Positions 194 through 33,019 of a stretch of 43,681 nt of DNA are shown here, in pieces. How positions within the stretch are numbered: position 1 is the first letter of the stretch; every line of letters begins with the position of its first letter. The stretch is from a bacterium. GTDB taxonomy: Bacteria > Cyanobacteriota > Vampirovibrionia > Gastranaerophilales > Gastranaerophilaceae. The position numbers and the translations under genes were made by a program. The notes under the pieces were generated by a model that worked only from the letters and a program-made list of their open reading frames with translations, was not told the DNA's origin and searched no databases. Where the stretch lies: NCBI GenBank assembly GCA_017482685.1, contig JAFUMP010000020.1, positions 1 through 43,681 on the forward strand. Reading direction: 5' to 3'.

Positions 194-2284
194 TTAATAA
201 CCGCCGGATTCTCCAATAGTATCAACGGCTTCAACCTTAATATCAGTAATAAGCTCTGAGTATGAAATTACAACAATAGTAGGAATATGCCTTTTTAATA
301 ATTGATATAACGGCAATCTAATTCTTGGAGAACAAAGAATTACAGGTTGCATTCCAATAGATTGGTGAGCACGCATCAATGTCATTGCAGTTGATTCAAT
401 TAAATCCTGTACTTGCATTGGATTTAAAAGGAACATCGTACCAAGCTCTGTTCTTTGACAGCTATCATCAAGATTCTTTTCCCATTCAGGAGAAAGGGTT
501 AAAGCATATAAAACTCTATCTCTATCGACATTTGTAAGACATATTTGACGTCCCAATGCAGCACGTAGACGTTCTGAAAGAATATCAGGCTCTTTTGAAA
601 ATCTTGCATAATCACATAGTCTTTCAAATACAAAAATAATATCTTTAATTGAAACTTTTTCTCGAATAAGGTTAACAAATATTTTTCTTAAATCAGAAGT
701 TGAAATAATAGCAGGAACTAAGTCATTAACAAGTGTAGGGTCTTGAGAACGAACAAGCTCCATAAGTTTAAGCACATCTGTTTTTGTCATAACTTCATCG
801 ACGTGTTTTCTTACACATTCTTGTAAGTGTGTAACAAGAACATCTGTTGCATCAACAGCCGTAACATTCTTAGTTGCCTTAGCATCTTCTTGAGAAATCC
901 AGTAAGCCTGAGTTTGATAAGTTGGGTCAACACCAACAATAGCGTCTTCTGGAATAGTTTTCTTCACAGAATCCCATTGATCTGCAATTACCATATATTT
1001 TCCAGGATATACAAACCCTGAAGCAACCACGTTATTACGTATAGAAATAACATATTCATTTGCTTCTAGAGCAGAAGAGTCCATGATACGAATATTTGGT
1101 AAAATGTAACCTAATTCATCTGTAACTCTTTGACGAAGAGCAGCAATTTTAGCAAGTAATTGACCTTCTTGGTCAGGATCGGCAATTACAAGCAAACCTG
1201 CGCCTACTTGTAAGCTTAATACGTCAACACCAAGTCTTTCATACATTTTATTAGGGTTAACCAAATCTTGCATATTTTGACGAACGCTTTCTAATTGACC
1301 TAATTGAGATTGAACGTCAGCATTAACTAATACAGAGAAACCTGCTACAGCAAGAACTATAGTAAAAACCAAAAATGGTAAAAATGGTAAACCTGTAATT
1401 GGACAAGTTATTGTAATTAAACCTAAGAATAACGCAGCAAAGAATAGCGAATATGGTTTCGCCATAATTTGATTCGTCAAATCACCACCTAATGAAGTAT
1501 TACCCGCTGAAGCACGTGTCATGACAATACCAGCTGCAATTGACATTAAAAGAGATGGTAACTGAGAAGCAAGTCCGTCACCAATGGTTAAAACTGTATA
1601 TTTACTAACTGCATCAGCGACAGGCATTTGATTAACAAGGCAACCAATACATAATCCACCAACAATGTTAATTATAACAATGATGATACCAGCCATAGTA
1701 TCACCTTTTACGAACTTCATAGAACCGTCCATTGAACCGAATAAACTTGATTCTCTTTGTAAGTCCTCACGTTTTTTAACAGCTTCTTCTGGTGATATTA
1801 AGCCTGCATTAAAATCGGCGTCAATAGTCATCTGTTTACCAGGCATAGCGTCTAAGGCAAAACGAGCCGCAACTTCAGCAATACGTTCCGCACCTTTTGT
1901 GATTACCATAAACTGTACAACAGTAATAATAAGGAAGATAACTCCCCCTACAATCATATTACCACCAGTAACGAAAGTTCCGAATGCGTGTACAACTTCT
2001 CCTGCATCACCTTTTGCAAGAATCAAACGTGTTGAGGCAATTGAAAGTACCAAGCGAAACATTGTACCAATAAGAATAATAGAAGGAAAAGCTGCTAATT
2101 CTAATGGCTTCTGGACATATAGGGAAATCATCAATAAAACAATACCTAGGGTTATGTTTAGTGAAATAGAAAAGTTAATAACCCAATTTGGCATTTCCAT
2201 AATCAGAATCAACACTAACGTCATAACGAATAGTGCTAAAAATATTTCTGATATTGGTTTATTTTGTTGTCCTTCTCCTGCCAT
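194..2284 (-). CDS. flhA: Flagellar biosynthesis protein FlhA (export gate)
   Basis: This 696-residue protein matches full-length FlhA in size and layout. Residues 1-320 hold about eight membrane segments and include the FHIPEP-type stretch FPSIILIGTMFRLVLSIAST (residues 66-85). Residues ~345-696 are the cytoplasmic domain that forms a nonameric ring docking export chaperones and substrates. FlhA is the gate of the flagellar type III export apparatus in the inner membrane. Its ATG follows the fliH stop by 6 nt and its binding site lies inside the end of fliH, so the two are probably translationally coupled. FlhA directly after FliH is unusual, because fliI normally follows fliH. An injectisome SctV is less likely because fliE and a full-length fliF are in the same operon. 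A soluble paralogue of residues ~345-580 is encoded at 32375-33019. Confidence 0.95.
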   Translation of the reverse strand: MAGEGQQNKPISEIFLALFVMTLVLILIMEMPNWVINFSISLNITLGIVLLMISLYVQKPLELAAFPSIILIGTMFRLVLSIASTRLILAKGDAGEVVHAFGTFVTGGNMIVGGVIFLIITVVQFMVITKGAERIAEVAARFALDAMPGKQMTIDADFNAGLISPEEAVKKREDLQRESSLFGSMDGSMKFVKGDTMAGIIIVIINIVGGLCIGCLVNQMPVADAVSKYTVLTIGDGLASQLPSLLMSIAAGIVMTRASAGNTSLGGDLTNQIMAKPYSLFFAALFLGLITITCPITGLPFLPFLVFTIVLAVAGFSVLVNADVQSQLGQLESVRQNMQDLVNPNKMYERLGVDVLSLQVGAGLLVIADPDQEGQLLAKIAALRQRVTDELGYILPNIRIMDSSALEANEYVISIRNNVVASGFVYPGKYMVIADQWDSVKKTIPEDAIVGVDPTYQTQAYWISQEDAKATKNVTAVDATDVLVTHLQECVRKHVDEVMTKTDVLKLMELVRSQDPTLVNDLVPAIISTSDLRKIFVNLIREKVSIKDIIFVFERLCDYARFSKEPDILSERLRAALGRQICLTNVDRDRVLYALTLSPEWEKNLDDSCQRTELGTMFLLNPMQVQDLIESTAMTLMRAHQSIGMQPVILCSPRIRLPLYQLLKRHIPTIVVISYSELITDIKVEAVDTIGESGGY

Positions 2285-2290
2285 TTTTTA

Positions 2291-3067
2291 TTAGATTCCT
2301 ATTAAGGCTTTTTTAATTATTTCAAGTTGTGTATCAATTGAAGCATCTACAATACCATTACTTGTTTGAAAAACACATCCACCTTCTTCAATTGATGGAT
2401 CAGCCACAATATTAATTTTTGAATCAATACCATATTGATAAGTTATATTTGGAATTGTATCTTTTACAAATTGTACCGAATGAGGTTGAACCCTTATAAC
2501 AATTTTTGGCTCATTTTTTGATACAGTTTTAAGTATATCAATAATTGTATCTATTAATATTTGTGGATCTGAATCTAATTCTTTTTTAATAATTTTTTTT
2601 GAAATATCTACACAAATTTCTAAAATATCTGGTGCAATATATTCAAAAACATCTTTTCTTGCATTCATAAAATTTGAAAGTTCTTGCTTAAATGCTTCAA
2701 TGTCTGCATTTGCTTTTTCCAAGCCAATTCTATAGCCTTCTTCAAAAGCGGATTTTTTAATATTTTCAGATTCTTCTTGAGCTCTTGAGACAAGATTTCT
2801 ATCATCAATCCTACGATACCCACGTCTACGAGAGCCTCTTCTACGTTCTTGCCTTTGTGTAAAATCTATATTTTCAATATCAAACAAATCAATATCAGGT
2901 TCAGGAGCTTGAGTTTCAGTAGGTTGAGGAGGTACTGTTTCTGTAACTAAATCTTGAATCTCAGGAGTAAAATTTTCAGCAGTTTCTACAGGCGCAACAT
3001 GTTTTTGCGTCTGTTTTTCACTTTTTTTAACCTCTCCCGATTTTTGATTTTTTCTTTTAATAATCAT
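2291..3067 (-). CDS. fliH: Flagellar export-ATPase regulator FliH
   Basis: FliH is the soluble stator that binds the FliI ATPase and targets it to the export gate. The 258-residue product has a low-complexity charged and Pro/Gln-rich N-terminus (residues ~1-75), a basic RRGSRRRGYRR patch near residue 80, a predicted helical or coiled-coil stretch (~95-140), and a C-terminal FliH/YscL domain ending in the family-typical segment EEGGCVFQTSNGIVDASIDT (near residue 230). The basic patch is not typical of the family. It starts 8 nt after the stop of the fliG-slot gene and is followed by flhA. No fliI is present in the window. Confidence 0.88.
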   Translation of the reverse strand: MIIKRKNQKSGEVKKSEKQTQKHVAPVETAENFTPEIQDLVTETVPPQPTETQAPEPDIDLFDIENIDFTQRQERRRGSRRRGYRRIDDRNLVSRAQEESENIKKSAFEEGYRIGLEKANADIEAFKQELSNFMNARKDVFEYIAPDILEICVDISKKIIKKELDSDPQILIDTIIDILKTVSKNEPKIVIRVQPHSVQFVKDTIPNITYQYGIDSKINIVADPSIEEGGCVFQTSNGIVDASIDTQLEIIKKALIGI

Positions 3068-3075
3068 TTTCTATA

Positions 3076-4137
3076 TTATACATTGTCCTCAATATATTCT
3101 GCAACTATTCCTGCAACTTTTAAAGGTATGTTTTCAAACTCGCCGTCAAAAGCTTTTGATACAAACCTTTTGACTATTGGTCGTTCATTTTTTATAACTC
3201 TTTCAATTTTTTCTCTAGATTTTGTAGCATATAGCCTTTTTAAATCTGCTAAAACATTTTCCTTTGACAATTTACGTTTTACTGGTAAGAAATTTTTAAT
3301 CTCTTTAATACAATCCGTAACTAAATCACCATCAATATGCGATTCTAAATCTGCCATATTCATATATTGAGAAATTGTTAATGAATCATTAGAATCAAAT
3401 TTATTAAGTATAGTCGTTACCTTATCTTGTGATAAAACTTTTAATACAAGAGCTAAAGACATTAATTTCAAATCTTTATGACTCAAGCCTTGAGGTATTG
3501 CACCAGAAGAAGCTGGAAGTTTTTTACCTCTTTTTGCAGCTCTGCGTTCTTCTTTACGCTTACGAGCCTCTTCTGCTTGTCTCTCAGATTCAGCTGCAAT
3601 TTCTTCTTGAGTTTTTTGAGACTGATTTGCCTGAGCTTGTTGAGCTTGTTGCGCCATAGCATCAATATTAGACTGATTTTCTGCTCGATTTTTTATCTCT
3701 GCATCAATAATCCCTTTTTGCTCAAGTTCCTCAATACTTTGCTTATAAACCTTTACTACGTGGTGTTCAACTGCTTGTAGCAATTGTTCATTAGGAATTT
3801 TTCTAATAACAGCCTGCTTCGCCACTTCAAAAATAGTAAATGCTATTTTTTGCATTATACTATCCCAGTATTGTGGAAGAATACCAGAATTTATTAAATC
3901 AATAGATTTATGATAAGACCATTCTGCAATAATTTGTGTTATAAAAACCGCTTGTTCAGCATTAAGCGCTAATGAAGTATCATTGGCCAAAGCCTCACCT
4001 GCTAGCATTGTAAAATTACCTAAAGTTTTTACAATATATTCTTTTTCATGAGGTTTTAAATCTGCAGGAACAAGATCTTTCGCTTGTTCTGCCATTGAAG
4101 CTGCAAACTCTTTATAATCAAATCCTTCTATTGCCAT
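3076..4137 (-). CDS. Divergent protein in the fliG position (probable rotor protein)
   Basis: The gene sits between fliF and fliH, where fliG is normally found, and its 353 residues match FliG length. FliG couples FliF to the C-ring and carries the torque-generating charged helix. Residues ~1-150 form a predicted helical domain I do not recognise, ~150-205 are a Gln/Ala/Glu/Lys/Arg-rich linker, and ~215-353 are helical. The segment at ~222-280 (LMSLALVLKVLSQDKVTTIL and what follows) resembles an armadillo-like repeat of the FliG N or middle domain. I see neither the EHPQ motif nor the canonical charged FliG_C torque helix. FliF in the same operon does end in a FliG-binding-like tail, which supports a FliG role. 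Function is inferred mainly from position, so no gene symbol is given. Confidence 0.6.
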   Translation of the reverse strand: MAIEGFDYKEFAASMAEQAKDLVPADLKPHEKEYIVKTLGNFTMLAGEALANDTSLALNAEQAVFITQIIAEWSYHKSIDLINSGILPQYWDSIMQKIAFTIFEVAKQAVIRKIPNEQLLQAVEHHVVKVYKQSIEELEQKGIIDAEIKNRAENQSNIDAMAQQAQQAQANQSQKTQEEIAAESERQAEEARKRKEERRAAKRGKKLPASSGAIPQGLSHKDLKLMSLALVLKVLSQDKVTTILNKFDSNDSLTISQYMNMADLESHIDGDLVTDCIKEIKNFLPVKRKLSKENVLADLKRLYATKSREKIERVIKNERPIVKRFVSKAFDGEFENIPLKVAGIVAEYIEDNV

Positions 4138-4174
4138 AAAATTAAGATTTCACCTTTCCCCACTTAAACACAAA

Positions 4175-5842
4175 TTACTGCTCAATCCAGCTTCTTATTC
4201 TTTCTCCAGCTTCAGATTCATCAACTCCATCAAACTCACGTTTGATTTCTCTTAAAGCATCTCTTATTTCAGCACCAGAAGAACGAATTGCAGGTCTATT
4301 TTGTTGTTCAATTAAACCTTGTTGCAATTGAGATTGCTTAGCTATCATATCTGCAGCATTAGCACTCAAGTCTTTAATCTGTCTTTCTTGAGCTTCATTT
4401 TGCTCTCTCAATCTTATAAGCTCTTCTTCTTGGGCAGCTTTTGCTGAATTAATTTTTTGTGTCATTGCTTTTTGCCCGAAGAACAAACCAAAAGCAAGAA
4501 GAGCAATTGCTAACCACCATGGATTACCATGTTCTGCTTTTATCGGCGCTTTTACATTTTTATCACCAGCCATAAACGGATCAAGAGATTCTGCAAAAGC
4601 AATTGTAACATTTTCAGGATCAGCTTTTGGACTTGCAGCATGAGCAACAAGCTCTTTTAAATCTTCTAATGTTATATCTACAGGAAGTGCGTCTTTTTCT
4701 AAAGTTACCGCAATCGAAATTTCTTCCAATACACCTGGAGAAATAAACTCATTTGTCTGAACTTTTGTCACTCCAAATTGAGTTTCTTTTGCTGTTCTTG
4801 AATAACTTCTATTTTGGCTGGAATCAGAGCTTCCTGCTGGTAAACCATTTGGAAGATATACACTTACTGCGTTAGTATTTTTATTAACATCTTGAGTTTG
4901 ATCTCCCAAGCCTTCAGAGAAAGTTTGTTCATTAACAGCAGTCTTTCTATTTGGATCATACTCAATTGTAAATTTTTCAACAGGAGCTTGTTTTAAAAAT
5001 GTTGATACTGTCGCAACATATTTACCAGCACCTATTAATCTGTTTAATTGAGTTTGAACTTTTTCCTGCATATATTTATCTTGCTGCTGGATTCTTTCAA
5101 TCATTTCTGATTGAGCATCAATTAAACTATTATAAACATGTCCATTTGTATCTGTTATAGAAATATTTTCAGCTTTTAATCCTGAAACGCTACCTGATAG
5201 TAAATTAGAAACAGCTTTAATTGTTCCCAGGCTTAATGTTTGACCAACAGATACTGTTAATTGAACAGTAGCAGTCACAGGTTTTTGCATTGATGAAAAC
5301 ATTGTCTGCTCTGGAATCGAAATAAATACAGAAGCATTTTCTATACCATCAATGCGTTTAATTAATCTTGCCAACTCACCATTCATAGCTCTTACAAGAC
5401 GAATTCTTTTATCTTCCTTAGTTGAAGTAAAATCACCTTTGTCAAAAACCTCTAAGCCTACATTTTGGTCATACAAACCACTTTCTACAATAAGCATTAG
5501 AGCCATATCTCTTTTTTCAGTTGTACATTTGCCACCAGCTGTAGAACAACTTTTTGCTTTTAATCTTAACAAAGATTTTGTACCGTCAACAGCCCTTGCG
5601 ACTACAATACCATGCTTTGCTAGCATTGCTTGGATTTCTAAAGCCTTACCTAAATTATCAGTTGTTAATAAATCAACATCTTCTTTTAATGGTTCATTAG
5701 ATGCATCAACTTCATTACCTTTACTTTTTGAATTAGAAGAGCCTACAATTGCGCAAGTAATTGAAATTGCAAGCACAATAACAATAACACCAGCAATAGC
5801 AGCTAATAACATTTTATTTCCAAGTAAAGATTTTAAGTCCAT
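4175..5842 (-). CDS. fliF: Flagellar MS-ring protein FliF
   Basis: FliF forms the inner-membrane MS-ring on which the rotor and export gate assemble. The 555 residues show the family layout: a membrane helix at ~12-33, a periplasmic region with ring-building domains (including FISIPEQTMFSSMQKPVTAT and an IDAQSEMIERIQQQ stretch), a second helix at ~438-457 (PWWLAIALLAFGLFFGQ), and a ~98-residue cytoplasmic tail. The tail is coiled-coil-like and ends DESEAGERIRSWIEQ, resembling the FliG-binding terminus. There is a small Cys pair (residues ~78 and 85) in the first periplasmic part. Two membrane spans and full length separate it from the SctJ lipoproteins of injectisomes. The ATG has a GGGAAGGA binding site. 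Confidence 0.92.
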   Translation of the reverse strand: MDLKSLLGNKMLLAAIAGVIVIVLAISITCAIVGSSNSKSKGNEVDASNEPLKEDVDLLTTDNLGKALEIQAMLAKHGIVVARAVDGTKSLLRLKAKSCSTAGGKCTTEKRDMALMLIVESGLYDQNVGLEVFDKGDFTSTKEDKRIRLVRAMNGELARLIKRIDGIENASVFISIPEQTMFSSMQKPVTATVQLTVSVGQTLSLGTIKAVSNLLSGSVSGLKAENISITDTNGHVYNSLIDAQSEMIERIQQQDKYMQEKVQTQLNRLIGAGKYVATVSTFLKQAPVEKFTIEYDPNRKTAVNEQTFSEGLGDQTQDVNKNTNAVSVYLPNGLPAGSSDSSQNRSYSRTAKETQFGVTKVQTNEFISPGVLEEISIAVTLEKDALPVDITLEDLKELVAHAASPKADPENVTIAFAESLDPFMAGDKNVKAPIKAEHGNPWWLAIALLAFGLFFGQKAMTQKINSAKAAQEEELIRLREQNEAQERQIKDLSANAADMIAKQSQLQQGLIEQQNRPAIRSSGAEIRDALREIKREFDGVDESEAGERIRSWIEQ

Positions 5843-5890
5843 ATATCCTTCCCTACATTATTATACACATATAAAGCAGTTATGAGAAGC

Positions 5891-6232
5891 CTAAATTTGT
5901 AATTGCATGATTTTATCATACGCTTGGATGACTTTTCCTGTTACAGTTGTTGCTACGTTAACTGCAATTTCTGCTTTAGACATAGCTGTCATAACGTCGT
6001 GAATATCAACATTTTCATTGCCCATCATAACATCTTTTAACAAATTATCAGGAGCTTCCATTGTTGTATTCAAATTTTCAACAAGTCCAGACATAACAGA
6101 AGAAAAGTCTGCAGTACCAACTTCTTCAACTCGGCTCATTCTTGCAGAAGGAATATCATACCCCCAAGAATCAAGTTTTGTATGTTGTATTCTAGCTTCT
6201 AGATCATATCTTGGATAAAAACCGTTAAACAT
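5891..6232 (-). CDS. fliE: Flagellar hook-basal body protein FliE
   Basis: FliE links the MS-ring to the rod and is an early export substrate. The 113-residue product ends with the family signature: VDIHDVMTAMSKAEIAVNVA, then a KVIQAYDKIMQLQI terminus. It is first in the operon, 48 nt upstream of fliF, with a strong AGAGGTG binding site about 7 nt before the ATG. flgB and flgC, which often precede fliE, are absent here, so the rod genes must lie elsewhere. Confidence 0.93.
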   Translation of the reverse strand: MFNGFYPRYDLEARIQHTKLDSWGYDIPSARMSRVEEVGTADFSSVMSGLVENLNTTMEAPDNLLKDVMMGNENVDIHDVMTAMSKAEIAVNVATTVTGKVIQAYDKIMQLQI

Positions 6233-6552: not shown

Positions 6553-8388
6553 ATGAATAAAAAGCTAAAGATGAAATGGTTTACATTTGCGACATATATA
6601 CTTTTAGTCCTTGCGGTAATGCTAGTTGGCTATACAATGATGAACAATAATAAAACATTAAAAAATGTTATAACTTCATTTTTTGAAGTAGCTGAAAACA
6701 GAAGTTTTGATTATAGACAGTCATTAAAAATCATTCATAAACAGCCTGTACCTAATAAAGATATTATCGTCTTGGCAATTGATGATGCAAGCTTAGAAAT
6801 GCTTTGGGAAAAATATGGAGAATGGCCACTTCCAAGAAATGTGTACGCAGATATTATAAATCATATCGAAAAAGAACATCCACAAGCGTTAATTTTTGAT
6901 TTATTATTTATAAAATCTATGCAAAAAGAAGCTCATTGTGACAAAGTTTTAGTAGAAGCAATGAATAAATATAATAACATTTATACAGGAATGAATTTTG
7001 ATGGACAAACTTTTGATATAAGACGCCCAATTGAATTACCTAATAGATTATCTATTGAAGTTGATAATCAATCTAATATTGATATAAAGAAAAAATATGG
7101 TTTCTCAAACTGTCGCCCTATAATGTCAGAACTGCTTAACGGAAATGTTCATGTTGGCATTATTAATGTTTTAAGAAACAGTGATGGAATTATTAGAAAA
7201 ATCGCCCCATTAATGGAATATAGGGGCAATTATTATCCATATTTAACTTTTGGTGCAGCTATTAATTACATGAGTGGTGAAGAAGTAAAAAAACTCTCAA
7301 TTGATAAAAATGCAAAATTAATTATTCAAGATACACAAATCCCTCTAACTAAAGACGGAGACGCAATTCTAAACTGGTATGGAACAAGTGGAACTCATAC
7401 TATATATCCGATGTACAAAGTAATTAATGAGATTGAAGGTAAAATTCAAGGTCAAAAGCTTGATTTTAAAGATAAAATTGTAATTATAGGAACTACAGCA
7501 ACATCTCTTCATGATACAAAAAGTGTCCCTGTACAGGAAGGAATTTATCCTGGCGTTGAAATCCACGCAACATTCTTTAATAACGTCTTAGATAATAATT
7601 TTATTAAACAAACTAGTACTTTTGTTAATATAGCTATAATTTTATTCGTAATTGCATTAGTTGGATGTATAGTAATGTTATCAACCTCAACAATATTTGC
7701 AATCCTTTCAACAACTTTATTCGCTATTGGCTATGTATTTATCTCTTACTACACAATGGAATTATTTAATCTTTGGATTCCTGTTGTTATACCTATAATT
7801 TCAATAATTTGCGCTTTTGCACTATCTTTTCTTGCAAAATACTTAATAAAATCAAGAGATTTTGAATATCAATATAAACTTGCAACTATTGACGGTTTGA
7901 CAGAACTATATAATCATAGATATTTTCAAGAGACATTAGCTAGTCAAATAGAGATTTCAAAGCGTTATTCACAACCGTTCTCATTAATAATAATAGATAT
8001 TGATTTCTTTAAAAAGTTTAATGACACTTATGGTCACCAAGCTGGAGACGCAGTTTTAAGACAAGTTGCTCAAACTCTGAAGAAAAATTCTCGTACAACA
8101 GATATTGTATGTCGATACGGTGGTGAAGAAATGAGCATAATTCTTCCTAATACAACCGCAGAAGAAGCTATGTTTAGTGCAAATCGTATACATAAAGCTG
8201 TTGCAGAAAGAGATTTTCAATTAAACCCAACAGAAACAGGAAAAGTTACAATAAGCGTTGGCGTAGCAACTTTCCCTGATAATGCAGAAACAGCTCAAGA
8301 TTTAATCGAATTTGCAGACAAAGGTTTGTATTATGCAAAAGAACACGGTAGAAATCAGGTAGTTAAAATTGATACGATAAAAGGTTAA
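6553..8388 (+). CDS. CHASE2-domain diguanylate cyclase
   Basis: Predicted membrane sensor that makes cyclic di-GMP from two GTP. Start chosen at the ATG behind GGGAGG (6543-6548); the frame opens further upstream at a TTG (6514) that lacks a binding site and overlaps the preceding small ORF. Order: N-terminal membrane helix (~10-28), an extracytoplasmic CHASE2 sensor (~35-350, with the characteristic IIVLAIDDASLEMLWEKYGE-type opening), three membrane helices (~355-440), then a GGDEF domain. The active-site loop reads GGEEM (near residue 523) and an RTTD sequence lies five residues before it, matching an inhibitory I-site. It is therefore probably active and product-inhibited. It lies beside the flagellar operon, so a link to motility or attachment is plausible but not shown. 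trmFO follows after 3 nt. Confidence 0.9.
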   Translation: MNKKLKMKWFTFATYILLVLAVMLVGYTMMNNNKTLKNVITSFFEVAENRSFDYRQSLKIIHKQPVPNKDIIVLAIDDASLEMLWEKYGEWPLPRNVYADIINHIEKEHPQALIFDLLFIKSMQKEAHCDKVLVEAMNKYNNIYTGMNFDGQTFDIRRPIELPNRLSIEVDNQSNIDIKKKYGFSNCRPIMSELLNGNVHVGIINVLRNSDGIIRKIAPLMEYRGNYYPYLTFGAAINYMSGEEVKKLSIDKNAKLIIQDTQIPLTKDGDAILNWYGTSGTHTIYPMYKVINEIEGKIQGQKLDFKDKIVIIGTTATSLHDTKSVPVQEGIYPGVEIHATFFNNVLDNNFIKQTSTFVNIAIILFVIALVGCIVMLSTSTIFAILSTTLFAIGYVFISYYTMELFNLWIPVVIPIISIICAFALSFLAKYLIKSRDFEYQYKLATIDGLTELYNHRYFQETLASQIEISKRYSQPFSLIIIDIDFFKKFNDTYGHQAGDAVLRQVAQTLKKNSRTTDIVCRYGGEEMSIILPNTTAEEAMFSANRIHKAVAERDFQLNPTETGKVTISVGVATFPDNAETAQDLIEFADKGLYYAKEHGRNQVVKIDTIKG

Positions 8389-21755: not shown

Positions 21756-21795
21756 AAAAAAATAAAGGAATAAAAATTTATTCCTTTATTTTTTT
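21756..21795 (-). terminator. Terminator overlapping the end of the 133-aa gene
   Basis: A 19-bp AT-rich inverted repeat (21756-21774 with 21777-21795, core TAAAGGAATAAA) includes the stop codon and final Lys codons of the gene. T-rich sequence follows on the minus strand. Confidence 0.65.
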
Positions 21796-22187
21796 AAACT
21801 CAATTGTTCTTCTAACCACAAAGCAATATTTGTATAATAATTTAACTCATCACATCTAGTTTTTTCACACAAATCTCTCCAAATGGTTTTAGCTTCTTTT
21901 AAATCTTTAAAAGAAAATTTATACATTGGTTCTTTTTCTTCTTTTATATTGACAACAACCGAATTTTCTTGTGGTAATAAAGAAAATGACTGAATCCTTT
22001 GAAGAACTTCAGTCATTTTCTCTTTAATAGCTAATCCTTGTGAATCAATTATTACATCAATAAATTTAGTATTTGCCAACTTTTCCTTGCAACGACTAAT
22101 CTCTGATGCATTATAATGCATATAACCTTGACTTCTGACTTGTAACGCTTTGAAGTTTGTATTTTTTTGCACGTTATTTACACGCAT
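21786..22187 (-). CDS. Hypothetical protein (133 aa)
   Basis: Not recognised. No signal peptide; mixed helix/strand composition with two segments (KFIDVIIDSQGLAIKEKM; ENSVVVNIKEEKEPMYKFSF) and a C-terminal helix. The N-terminus MRVNNVQKNTNFKAL has an NTNFKAL motif that resembles NMTFQGV near residue 51 of the 653-residue repeat protein. Strong AAGGAGG binding site and an extended -10 promoter support it as a real gene, divergent from polA. Confidence 0.75.
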   Translation of the reverse strand: MRVNNVQKNTNFKALQVRSQGYMHYNASEISRCKEKLANTKFIDVIIDSQGLAIKEKMTEVLQRIQSFSLLPQENSVVVNIKEEKEPMYKFSFKDLKEAKTIWRDLCEKTRCDELNYYTNIALWLEEQLSLKK

Positions 22188-28057: not shown

Positions 28058-29542
28058 ATGAGCAAATGTTTTTATGTCCAATTAGAATCAAAAAATTATA
28101 GCGAAAGAATTCTAATGCAAGAAGGTACCCGTTTTGAAAACAAAGGTAAAAGATATACCATGGGATCAGACGGTGAACTTTCTATTTTTGATAAAGAAAC
28201 CCAAGAAATAACAAAAGGTAACACGATTGAATTAAGAGATTATCAATATCAAACTTTTAAAGCTGTTATGAACAACCATGATGAAAAAAAGGGGATTGCA
28301 ACCCTTAGTAATAAAGATATAGAGCTTTCATTAAAACAACATGAAAAAGGAAATGTTACAACAGATTTAGGAGAATTTCTTAAAGGAGATTATGAAGTCG
28401 AAAACCCTCGAAGATTTCCTAATGAAAATAAATTGTCTGCATACATAACAAATGGTAGAAAAAGCACTAGTGCTGTTTTGGCTTTTAGCTATAACGTCGT
28501 TGAAAAAGCTACGACAAAACCTGTAACACCAGAAAAAGATTCTAATTTACCAATAGAATCTACAACACCTGTTAAACCAACGCAAGGTGCTTTTACAGGC
28601 ACAGGATTATTTAATAATCCTAATATTAAAGAAAAAAGAGCTTTCACATATACTTGTAAAAAAGGAGATAACCTAGTAACACTTGCAAAAACATACGAAA
28701 TTGATACTTATCAAATAATTGCTGCAAACCCGCAGTTAGAAAAAGGTGTTGATTACAATGTAACTTTTCCTAAAAACGGACTAGCTAACTTAACTAGTAA
28801 TTTAAAACCAGGACAAAAAATAATAATTCCTGCTCGATATGATGTTAAAAAAGGCTCTTGCAAATCTGTTAATGATGTTGCAAAAATAGCTGGTGTTTCA
28901 GTGGATTTTCTTAAAGATTTTTTAACTATTGTCGAAACAAAAGAACAAAATGGTGAACCAGATTATAAAACGTACTTAGATGATGGAGGAACACCAACAA
29001 TAGGTTATGGACATACAGGTAGAGTTAATGGCAAACCGCTATCATGTAGAAAAGGCAAAAAAATTAGAATAGATAAAAAAGAAGCTTTAGAAATTTTAGC
29101 CGAAGATTTACTTAAACATAAAGCTATGACAATGGCTTACCTTGGAAAAGAAAATTACCTTAAAGCTCCTCGTTCAGTACAAGATGCTATTTTAGATGTT
29201 GCATATAATAAAGGTATTTGGGATGGTTATTTAACAAACCAAGGTTACGCTAAATCTACATCAAAAATAAAAGAAGATTTACAAAAAGGTCATTACGCTT
29301 CCGCATTAGTGCATACAAGACGAGAAAAAACTGGTTTTAGAGGTTTGAGAAAACGTAATATCTACAGATTTATATCTGGTCTAAAAGATCTCCCTACGGA
29401 TAAAAGAAAGGCTGCAATAAAAGCCATGACGTCATATTATAAACAAGAACTTGCAAAATGCAAAAGTTACGACAGAGAAGCTCTTAGGTCAGCTTGGGAA
29501 AATGCAAGACAAGGCAAATGCACAGGTTATAACCTAAAATAA
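28058..29542 (+). CDS. LysM-GH24 lysozyme-like protein without a signal peptide
   Basis: The 494-residue product has an N-terminal domain I do not recognise (~1-145), a Pro/Thr linker (~150-185), a LysM peptidoglycan-binding repeat (~196-260, with YTCKKGDNLVTLAKTYEI and later LKPGQKIIIPARY), and a GH24-type muramidase region (~285-430). The latter includes YLDDGGTPTIGYGHT, close to the T4-lysozyme-type pattern. The catalytic Glu is one residue nearer to the Asp than usual (E300). No Sec signal or lipobox is visible, so export would need another route or lysis. It could act in peptidoglycan remodelling or in a phage-like or flagellar context; this is inference. Confidence 0.8.
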   Translation: MSKCFYVQLESKNYSERILMQEGTRFENKGKRYTMGSDGELSIFDKETQEITKGNTIELRDYQYQTFKAVMNNHDEKKGIATLSNKDIELSLKQHEKGNVTTDLGEFLKGDYEVENPRRFPNENKLSAYITNGRKSTSAVLAFSYNVVEKATTKPVTPEKDSNLPIESTTPVKPTQGAFTGTGLFNNPNIKEKRAFTYTCKKGDNLVTLAKTYEIDTYQIIAANPQLEKGVDYNVTFPKNGLANLTSNLKPGQKIIIPARYDVKKGSCKSVNDVAKIAGVSVDFLKDFLTIVETKEQNGEPDYKTYLDDGGTPTIGYGHTGRVNGKPLSCRKGKKIRIDKKEALEILAEDLLKHKAMTMAYLGKENYLKAPRSVQDAILDVAYNKGIWDGYLTNQGYAKSTSKIKEDLQKGHYASALVHTRREKTGFRGLRKRNIYRFISGLKDLPTDKRKAAIKAMTSYYKQELAKCKSYDREALRSAWENARQGKCTGYNLK

Positions 29543-32374: not shown

Positions 32375-33019
32375 CTATTCGCAAGACTCGAGCTCTCTTG
32401 CAAGTTTTTTGACAATTCTTGTAGGTGATGTATAACTATAACAACCTGATTCTAAAGCACAATCTGCAAATTTTTCAAACACATAGTTTATATCTTTTAT
32501 CGAACGATTTTCCTCCAACAAATTCTTCAAGACATATCTAATATCTGTGATGGAGTACATTGATGTTATATTCCAAGCAGTCCAAGGTTGATTTTTTTGA
32601 ACAAAATTTACGTATTTTTCAGTCATTTGGTAAGTAAAAATCTGGTCTAAATGTCTATTATAAATATATTTCATCATATCTATTGTCTCCTTTTTTACTT
32701 CTTTTCTTGTTGGAATAACATATTTTTCTATTACCTTTTTTCCACGTACCAAAGCTAAAATCTGATTTTCTTGCAAATCAGACTTATCCAAAACATGCAC
32801 CGGCGGTAAAATAAAGCCATTTAAATCCTTCAATTCTTCTCGATACTCAGAAATTGTATTAATAATATCTACACCAAACGGAACTAAATCTTCTCCAATA
32901 AAAACCGTTATAATATCCGCATCTAAAGAATCAAACATTTCATCTATTCGTTCATATATATTAGGTTCAATTGTTTTTGATTCAGTATTTTTAAAAATTT
33001 TTTTTATTATTTCTAACAT
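32375..33019 (-). CDS. Stand-alone FlhA cytoplasmic-domain-like protein (214 aa)
   Basis: Aligns by eye with FlhA from this same window (residues ~345-580): YERI at 22 with YERL at 348, GFILPPVHVLD at 68 with GYILPNIRIMD at 392, and DIRYVLKNLLEENRSIKDIN at 159 with DLRKIFVNLIREKVSIKDII at 531 (about half identical over a 33-residue block). There is no membrane segment. The ~58 residues corresponding to subdomain D2 are replaced by a short linker, and the C-terminal D4 is absent. In Salmonella FlhA, D3 contacts build the ring and D1/D2 bind chaperones. A soluble competitor, assembly factor or alternative platform is possible. The ATG lacks a binding site; a -10 lies 6 nt before it. Confidence 0.8.
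   Translation of the reverse strand: MLEIIKKIFKNTESKTIEPNIYERIDEMFDSLDADIITVFIGEDLVPFGVDIINTISEYREELKDLNGFILPPVHVLDKSDLQENQILALVRGKKVIEKYVIPTRKEVKKETIDMMKYIYNRHLDQIFTYQMTEKYVNFVQKNQPWTAWNITSMYSITDIRYVLKNLLEENRSIKDINYVFEKFADCALESGCYSYTSPTRIVKKLARELESCE

Follow-up and report, generated by a model that had tools for sequence, protein, structure and literature searches.

A free-standing FlhA ring-core paralogue in Gastranaerophilaceae that probably serves a second export machine

The gene at positions 32375–33019 (minus strand; its product is hereafter denoted P0001) encodes a 214-residue paralogue of the FlhA cytoplasmic domain (FlhA-C), which is predicted to be reduced to the ring core and which probably serves a second export machine, termed here system B. 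To our knowledge, all type III export relies on FlhA or SctV as its sorting platform. The gene lies in a window of 43,681 nt (the whole stretch of DNA analysed here), comprising positions 1 to 43,681 of contig JAFUMP010000020.1 in assembly GCA_017482685.1, from a member of the Gastranaerophilaceae; the source genome is 1.5 Mb in 65 contigs and 74% complete, and the Gastranaerophilales are non-photosynthetic relatives of cyanobacteria. The original prediction, which took P0001 for a paralogue of FlhA-C in a flagellar setting, was right as to identity and wrong as to setting; the mechanism outlined below is one that we infer.

The identity of P0001 as a homologue of the FlhA cytoplasmic domain is firm. 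The ORF begins with an ATG codon and its limits are exactly those given above. Its product scores 57.3 bits against the Pfam FHIPEP family (cut-off 29.1; E 1.4e-15), the matching stretch being residues 114–189, and in BLASTP residues 26–188 align with residues 345–560 of the FlhA encoded in the same window (E 1e-13). The top PDB sequence matches are all FlhA or SctV proteins. P0001 fails both of the NCBIfam equivalog models concerned, with 55.9 bits for FlhA (cut-off 772) and 22 bits for SctV (TIGR01399; cut-off 692). An AlphaFold model of P0001, built from a 23-sequence alignment (A2), has a mean pLDDT of 87.7 and matches the folds of Salmonella and Bacillus subtilis FlhA-C with Z scores of 15–16; superposed on residues 359–590 of Salmonella FlhA, it gives a Z score of 15.9 and an rmsd of 2.0 Å over 177 residues. 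The best PDB fold matches are FlhA or SctV cytoplasmic domains throughout, and Arg60, Gly68, Pro72 and Glu182 are among the residues shared with the FlhA core. Sequence and structure comparisons thus bear out the paralogue assignment, the predicted fold being that of FlhA D1/D3 (Z 16), and the assignment withstands the structural test named in the original prediction.

The first part of D1 occupies residues 33–105 (32705–32923, minus strand), which align with residues 352–429 of the window FlhA and superpose on Salmonella FlhA from residue 359. The second part of D1, together with D3, occupies residues 106–210 (32390–32704, minus strand), a region defined by the alignment and the Pfam match, with the superposition ending at residue 590 of Salmonella FlhA. 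D2 is missing at the junction of these two parts (32704/32705, minus strand): in an alignment of all paralogues, residues 105 and 106 are adjacent where the window FlhA runs from 429 to 477, its residues 430–476 having no counterpart; D2 of Salmonella FlhA spans residues 435–483 (PMC7911332). The deletion of D2 proposed earlier is therefore real and clean, but it measures 47 residues instead of approximately 58. At its C-terminus P0001 reaches only to the border between D3 and D4, and in the alignment with FlhA both D2 and D4 are missing from all 26 family members. The N-terminal membrane region, which contains 7–8 transmembrane (TM) helices in FlhA and SctV, is also missing, P0001 aligning only from the linker onward; alignment and predicted fold agree on the absence of the membrane part, D2 and D4. 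In FlhA the nonameric ring is built by D1–D3 and D3–D3 contacts (PMC7911332), whilst chaperone–substrate complexes dock at the D1/D2 dimple (PMC7911332) or in the space between SD2 and SD4 (PMC8213127). P0001 thus keeps the ring-building D1 and D3 and has lost both of these docking sites.

Residues 1–11 (32987–33019, minus strand) are predicted, from hydrophobic moment and charge, to form a basic amphipathic helix that may tether the protein to a membrane or a partner. Across the family, residues 2–10 constitute a conserved helix of this kind, with a mean charge of +2.7 and a mean hydrophobic moment of 0.68 over the 26 members, compared to 0.39 in shuffled sequences; none of 2000 joint shuffles reached 0.68. 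The helix could be a membrane tether, or the counterpart of the FlhA linker, which plugs the neighbouring subunit (PMC8213127). Because of this conserved helix, P0001 is probably peripheral at the membrane and not freely soluble; its earlier description as soluble is apt in that there is no membrane domain, but does not allow for the helix.

The P0001 family comprises 26 sequences of 207–226 residues, which form a single group in the tree (support 100/99). With an orthologue threshold of E below 1e-39, the gene was found in 13 of 191 Gastranaerophilaceae genomes (about 7%), across seven genera sampled, and in 12 of 33 congeners; a phylum-wide sample yielded no relative above threshold outside the Gastranaerophilaceae. 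A scan of a sequence collection with a five-row P0001 alignment returned nine loci, several of them from the rumen or from Gastranaerophilales. Values of dN/dS lie between 0.11 and 0.21 for pairs at 62–74% identity, although near-saturated silent sites make them rough, and the residues that are invariant specifically in this family include Gln83-Glu84-Asn85, Glu134 and Tyr136. On sequence grounds, the family is real, conserved, and under purifying selection.

The flagellar setting did not survive the wider sampling. System A, the flagellar system, is represented in the 191 genomes by FlhA at about 870 bits, FliP at about 270 and FliF at about 190, and system B by FlhA at about 730, FliP at about 234 and FliF at about 122. 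An FHIPEP protein is present in every one of the 191 genomes, and FlhA-B, FliP-B and FliF-B in nearly all; flagellin is present in 76 and missing from 115. Seven of the 13 P0001 carriers have flagellin, the other six lacking both flagellin and flagellar-type FlhA, and the presence of P0001 is independent of that of flagellin (Fisher p 0.38). The original prediction had named occurrence in many relatives without flagella as evidence against itself; such relatives were found, and a flagellum-specific role for P0001 is rejected. These flagella-less carriers keep FlhA-B, FliP and FliF and, where checked, also FlhB, a FliI-type ATPase and rod-type proteins. System B, a type III-like export apparatus that has no filament, is present in all sampled carriers, but since non-carriers also have it, its carriage is a non-specific test for P0001. 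The P0001 family profile matches FlhA-B with E 1e-32 and flagellar FlhA-A with E about 1e-17.

The window itself contains a system B operon, fliE-fliF-X-fliH-flhA, on the minus strand, encoding FliE (5891–6232; Pfam FliE E 3e-19), FliF (4175–5842; YscJ_FliF E 7e-33), a protein denoted X at the place of fliG (3076–4137), FliH (2291–3067; Pfam FliH E 4e-23) and FlhA-B, the proposed partner ring (194–2284; FHIPEP 715 bits). Protein X is recognised by its conserved position and by homology of its N-domain to FlhA-C proteins of approximately 595 residues; its predicted structure has low confidence and matches nothing in the PDB significantly. FlhA-B falls below both NCBIfam cut-offs, with 692 bits for flagellar FlhA (772 needed) and 583 for SctV (692 needed). 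The system A operon of the source genome, fliP-fliQ-fliR-flhB-flhA, lies on a separate contig and encodes an FlhA of 702–703 residues; the window FlhA, with which P0001 was compared at the outset, is neither the only FlhA of the genome nor the flagellar one. System B loci were seen at 194–6232 of the window, at 8234–11715 of L150 and at 7964–11929 of L148, and elsewhere the system encodes FliN-like, FliO, FliP, FliQ, FliR, FlhB, FliI and rod-like proteins. Such genes have previously been viewed as eroded flagella, and earlier genome papers on the order describe incomplete flagellar gene sets (PMC4040986, PMC3787301); the open-licence literature yielded nothing relevant on either soluble paralogues of FlhA or type III systems of the Melainabacteria.

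A motif, F-x-G/A, recurs in the N-terminal 50 residues of proteins that are not otherwise related (for example at window 21786–22187, L148 11934–12347, L053 10076–10633 and L151 9407–9817) and is found in 8.1% of N-termini versus 1.9% of internal stretches; some instances are plainly due to chance, and the motif is a possible export signal for system B. Frames of 1,000–1,400 residues with flagellin N-domains occur in genomes G211, G120 and G140, with up to 20 flagellin-domain matches in G140.

P0001 is accompanied in this lineage by other detached FlhA-C modules. A protein of approximately 490 residues, with a weak DUF4177-like N-terminus followed by a complete FlhA D1–D4, is membrane-free and near-universal; that of the source genome has 488 residues and comprises the whole of FlhA-C (L031 1857–3323; G000 contig C34). 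Genome G079 encodes TM-anchored D1–D3 proteins of 238–249 residues, and further forms have 265–296 residues (g1, g23 and g53) or, in another family, 335 residues (G046). In genus g29, proteins of approximately 575–595 residues contain the protein X N-domain together with TM-like hydrophobic stretches and the whole of the FlhA cytoplasmic domain (L119 2042–3823, L120 1874–3649, L127 2133–3911 and L128 2364–4088), the N-domain matching system B protein X with E values of 7e-29 to 8e-19. This fusion is the best link of FlhA-C modules to system B, although it lies outside the clade of P0001 itself. The fusion genes adjoin a regulator pair resembling two-component signalling. A tree rooted on full-length FlhA places the P0001 clade with the TM-anchored G079 pair, and then with the soluble branch of approximately 490 residues, an arrangement that long branches, that of the P0001 family included, make tentative.

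Among known proteins, Salmonella FlhA-C (PDB 3A5I/6CH1) and B. subtilis FlhA-C (3MIX) share with P0001 the fold and the order of D1 and D3, whereas P0001 lacks their membrane region, D2 and D4, has a helix of its own, and is encoded by a separate gene. The cytoplasmic domains of the SctV injectisome gates (MxiA, CdsV and YscV) share the fold with Z scores of 13–15, but P0001 is less similar in sequence to SctV than to FlhA (22 bits for TIGR01399 versus 55.9), and the same parts are absent relative to SctV. The protein of approximately 490 residues is a membrane-free paralogue in genomes that carry P0001, from which it differs in its complete D1–D4, its extra N-terminal domain and its near-universal distribution. 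FlhX, a small free-standing paralogue of the FlhB cytoplasmic domain, offers a precedent for P0001 as a detached export-gate paralogue, although it derives from FlhB and is flagellar. A list of the flagellar secretion proteins of Campylobacterota includes FlhX as well as FlhB (PMC9321776). Chlamydia pneumoniae FlhA, a 583-residue protein that occurs beside CdsV and keeps seven predicted TM segments (PMC2830194), is likewise a reduced member of the FlhA family, present as the second such protein of a bacterium that has no flagella; unlike P0001, it is not confined to D1 and D3.

No system B export gene adjoins P0001 in any locus examined, and clustering of all flanking ORFs revealed no conserved operon partner except in four congeners, where gyrB adjoins the P0001 gene and flagellin or fliD genes lie nearby. 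A phage or defence gene is unlikely: PADLOC gave no significant defence match, tblastn revealed no phage records carrying P0001, and Foldseek against viral models returned weak matches alone, mostly thioredoxin-like. A match of PHROGs phrog_12657 to residues 118–187 (E 2.4e-7) most likely arises through the D3 domain. Directly downstream of P0001 (31297–32325, minus strand) are ORFs of 174 and 148 residues, the latter HNH-like, which lie in one frame with a stop codon between them and are apparently one gene broken by an in-frame stop. At 28058–29542 the window encodes a protein of 494 residues that combines LysM and phage-type lysozyme domains with an unassigned N-terminal segment.

The reading that we favour, tentatively and at somewhat below an even chance, is that P0001 is an accessory ring-core subunit or a competitor at the system B FlhA ring. 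In its support, the family profile matches FlhA-B far better than FlhA-A, and related paralogues reach the membrane via other anchors, namely a TM helix in G079 and the X N-domain in g29; against it, the P0001 family evolves fast, unlike FlhA-B. Since so few genomes of the family sample and only 12 of the 33 congeners carry P0001, system B works without it. In the tree, P0001 groups most closely with the G079 pair and next, when the root is placed on full-length FlhA, with the branch of approximately 490 residues, not with FlhA-B, and this soluble protein could therefore be the partner. An unlikely reading, though one to be taken seriously, is that P0001 and this protein work together in the cytoplasm, as a sorting ring of their own or as a chaperone reservoir, without dependence on the membrane gate. 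The 488-residue protein is the closest non-orthologous match to P0001 in its own genome (E 1.8e-8, 38% identity; 1.7e-6 for FlhA-B), the two proteins have Tyr136, Asn144 and Glu-Lys 182–183 of D3 in common, and rooting on full-length FlhA puts the P0001 family outside the FlhA-B branch, beside the soluble one; however, FlhA-B scored no worse than this protein with the P0001 family profile, nothing corresponding to the amphipathic helix is present in the soluble protein, and there is no gene linkage between the two.

Exaptation of the domain for a task unconnected with export, such as scaffolding or regulation, would be in keeping with the scattered genomic positions and fast divergence of P0001 and with the thioredoxin-like arrangement of D1, which is common to many proteins; we regard it as improbable, given that P0001 keeps the FlhA-like D1–D3 arrangement and is confined to a lineage that has system B throughout, and that a related paralogue is fused to a system B domain. 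The proposal that P0001 acts on the flagellar FlhA ring, as a cap or a modifier, or handles a particular class of flagellar substrates, draws on the flagellation of all sampled members of the window's genus and on the copies beside gyrB, which have flagellin or fliD genes in their vicinity, but is largely refuted by the flagellin-less carriers and by the weaker similarity to flagellar FlhA-A, and is quite improbable. P0001 does resemble a truncated FlhA and is missing from most genomes; nonetheless, that it is a decaying fragment without function is very improbable in the face of 26 intact members of near-constant length, low dN/dS, a clean subdomain excision common to all members, a conserved N-terminal helix particular to the family, and the invariant QEN 83–85, Glu134 and Tyr136. 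The selection data rule out pseudogene status.

In the mechanism proposed for the system B reading, P0001 would be a stand-alone FlhA ring core (D1 and D3) whose helix probably holds it at the membrane face, and would sit at the FlhA ring of the filament-less system B. Acting there as a non-docking subunit or as a stacked ring, it would lower or partition the docking sites and so tune which substrates pass. We infer that P0001 forms rings, touches FlhA-B, is held at the membrane and has a regulatory role; competition with, or co-assembly into, an FlhA ring, as put forward in the original prediction, is our best guess. In a broader and rather speculative form of this proposal, the Gastranaerophilaceae system B would be an undescribed export machine whose ring is accompanied by detached FlhA-C modules particular to the lineage, with P0001 as a dedicated subunit of mixed or stacked rings that would switch docking on and off.

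P0001 would represent a natural separation of ring building from substrate docking. It could show whether FlhA rings mix or stack, which bears on substrate-class switching in export. Its occurrence draws attention, moreover, to the fact that bacteria common in the gut and rumen possess a second export machine, and system B merits study as an independent secretion system.
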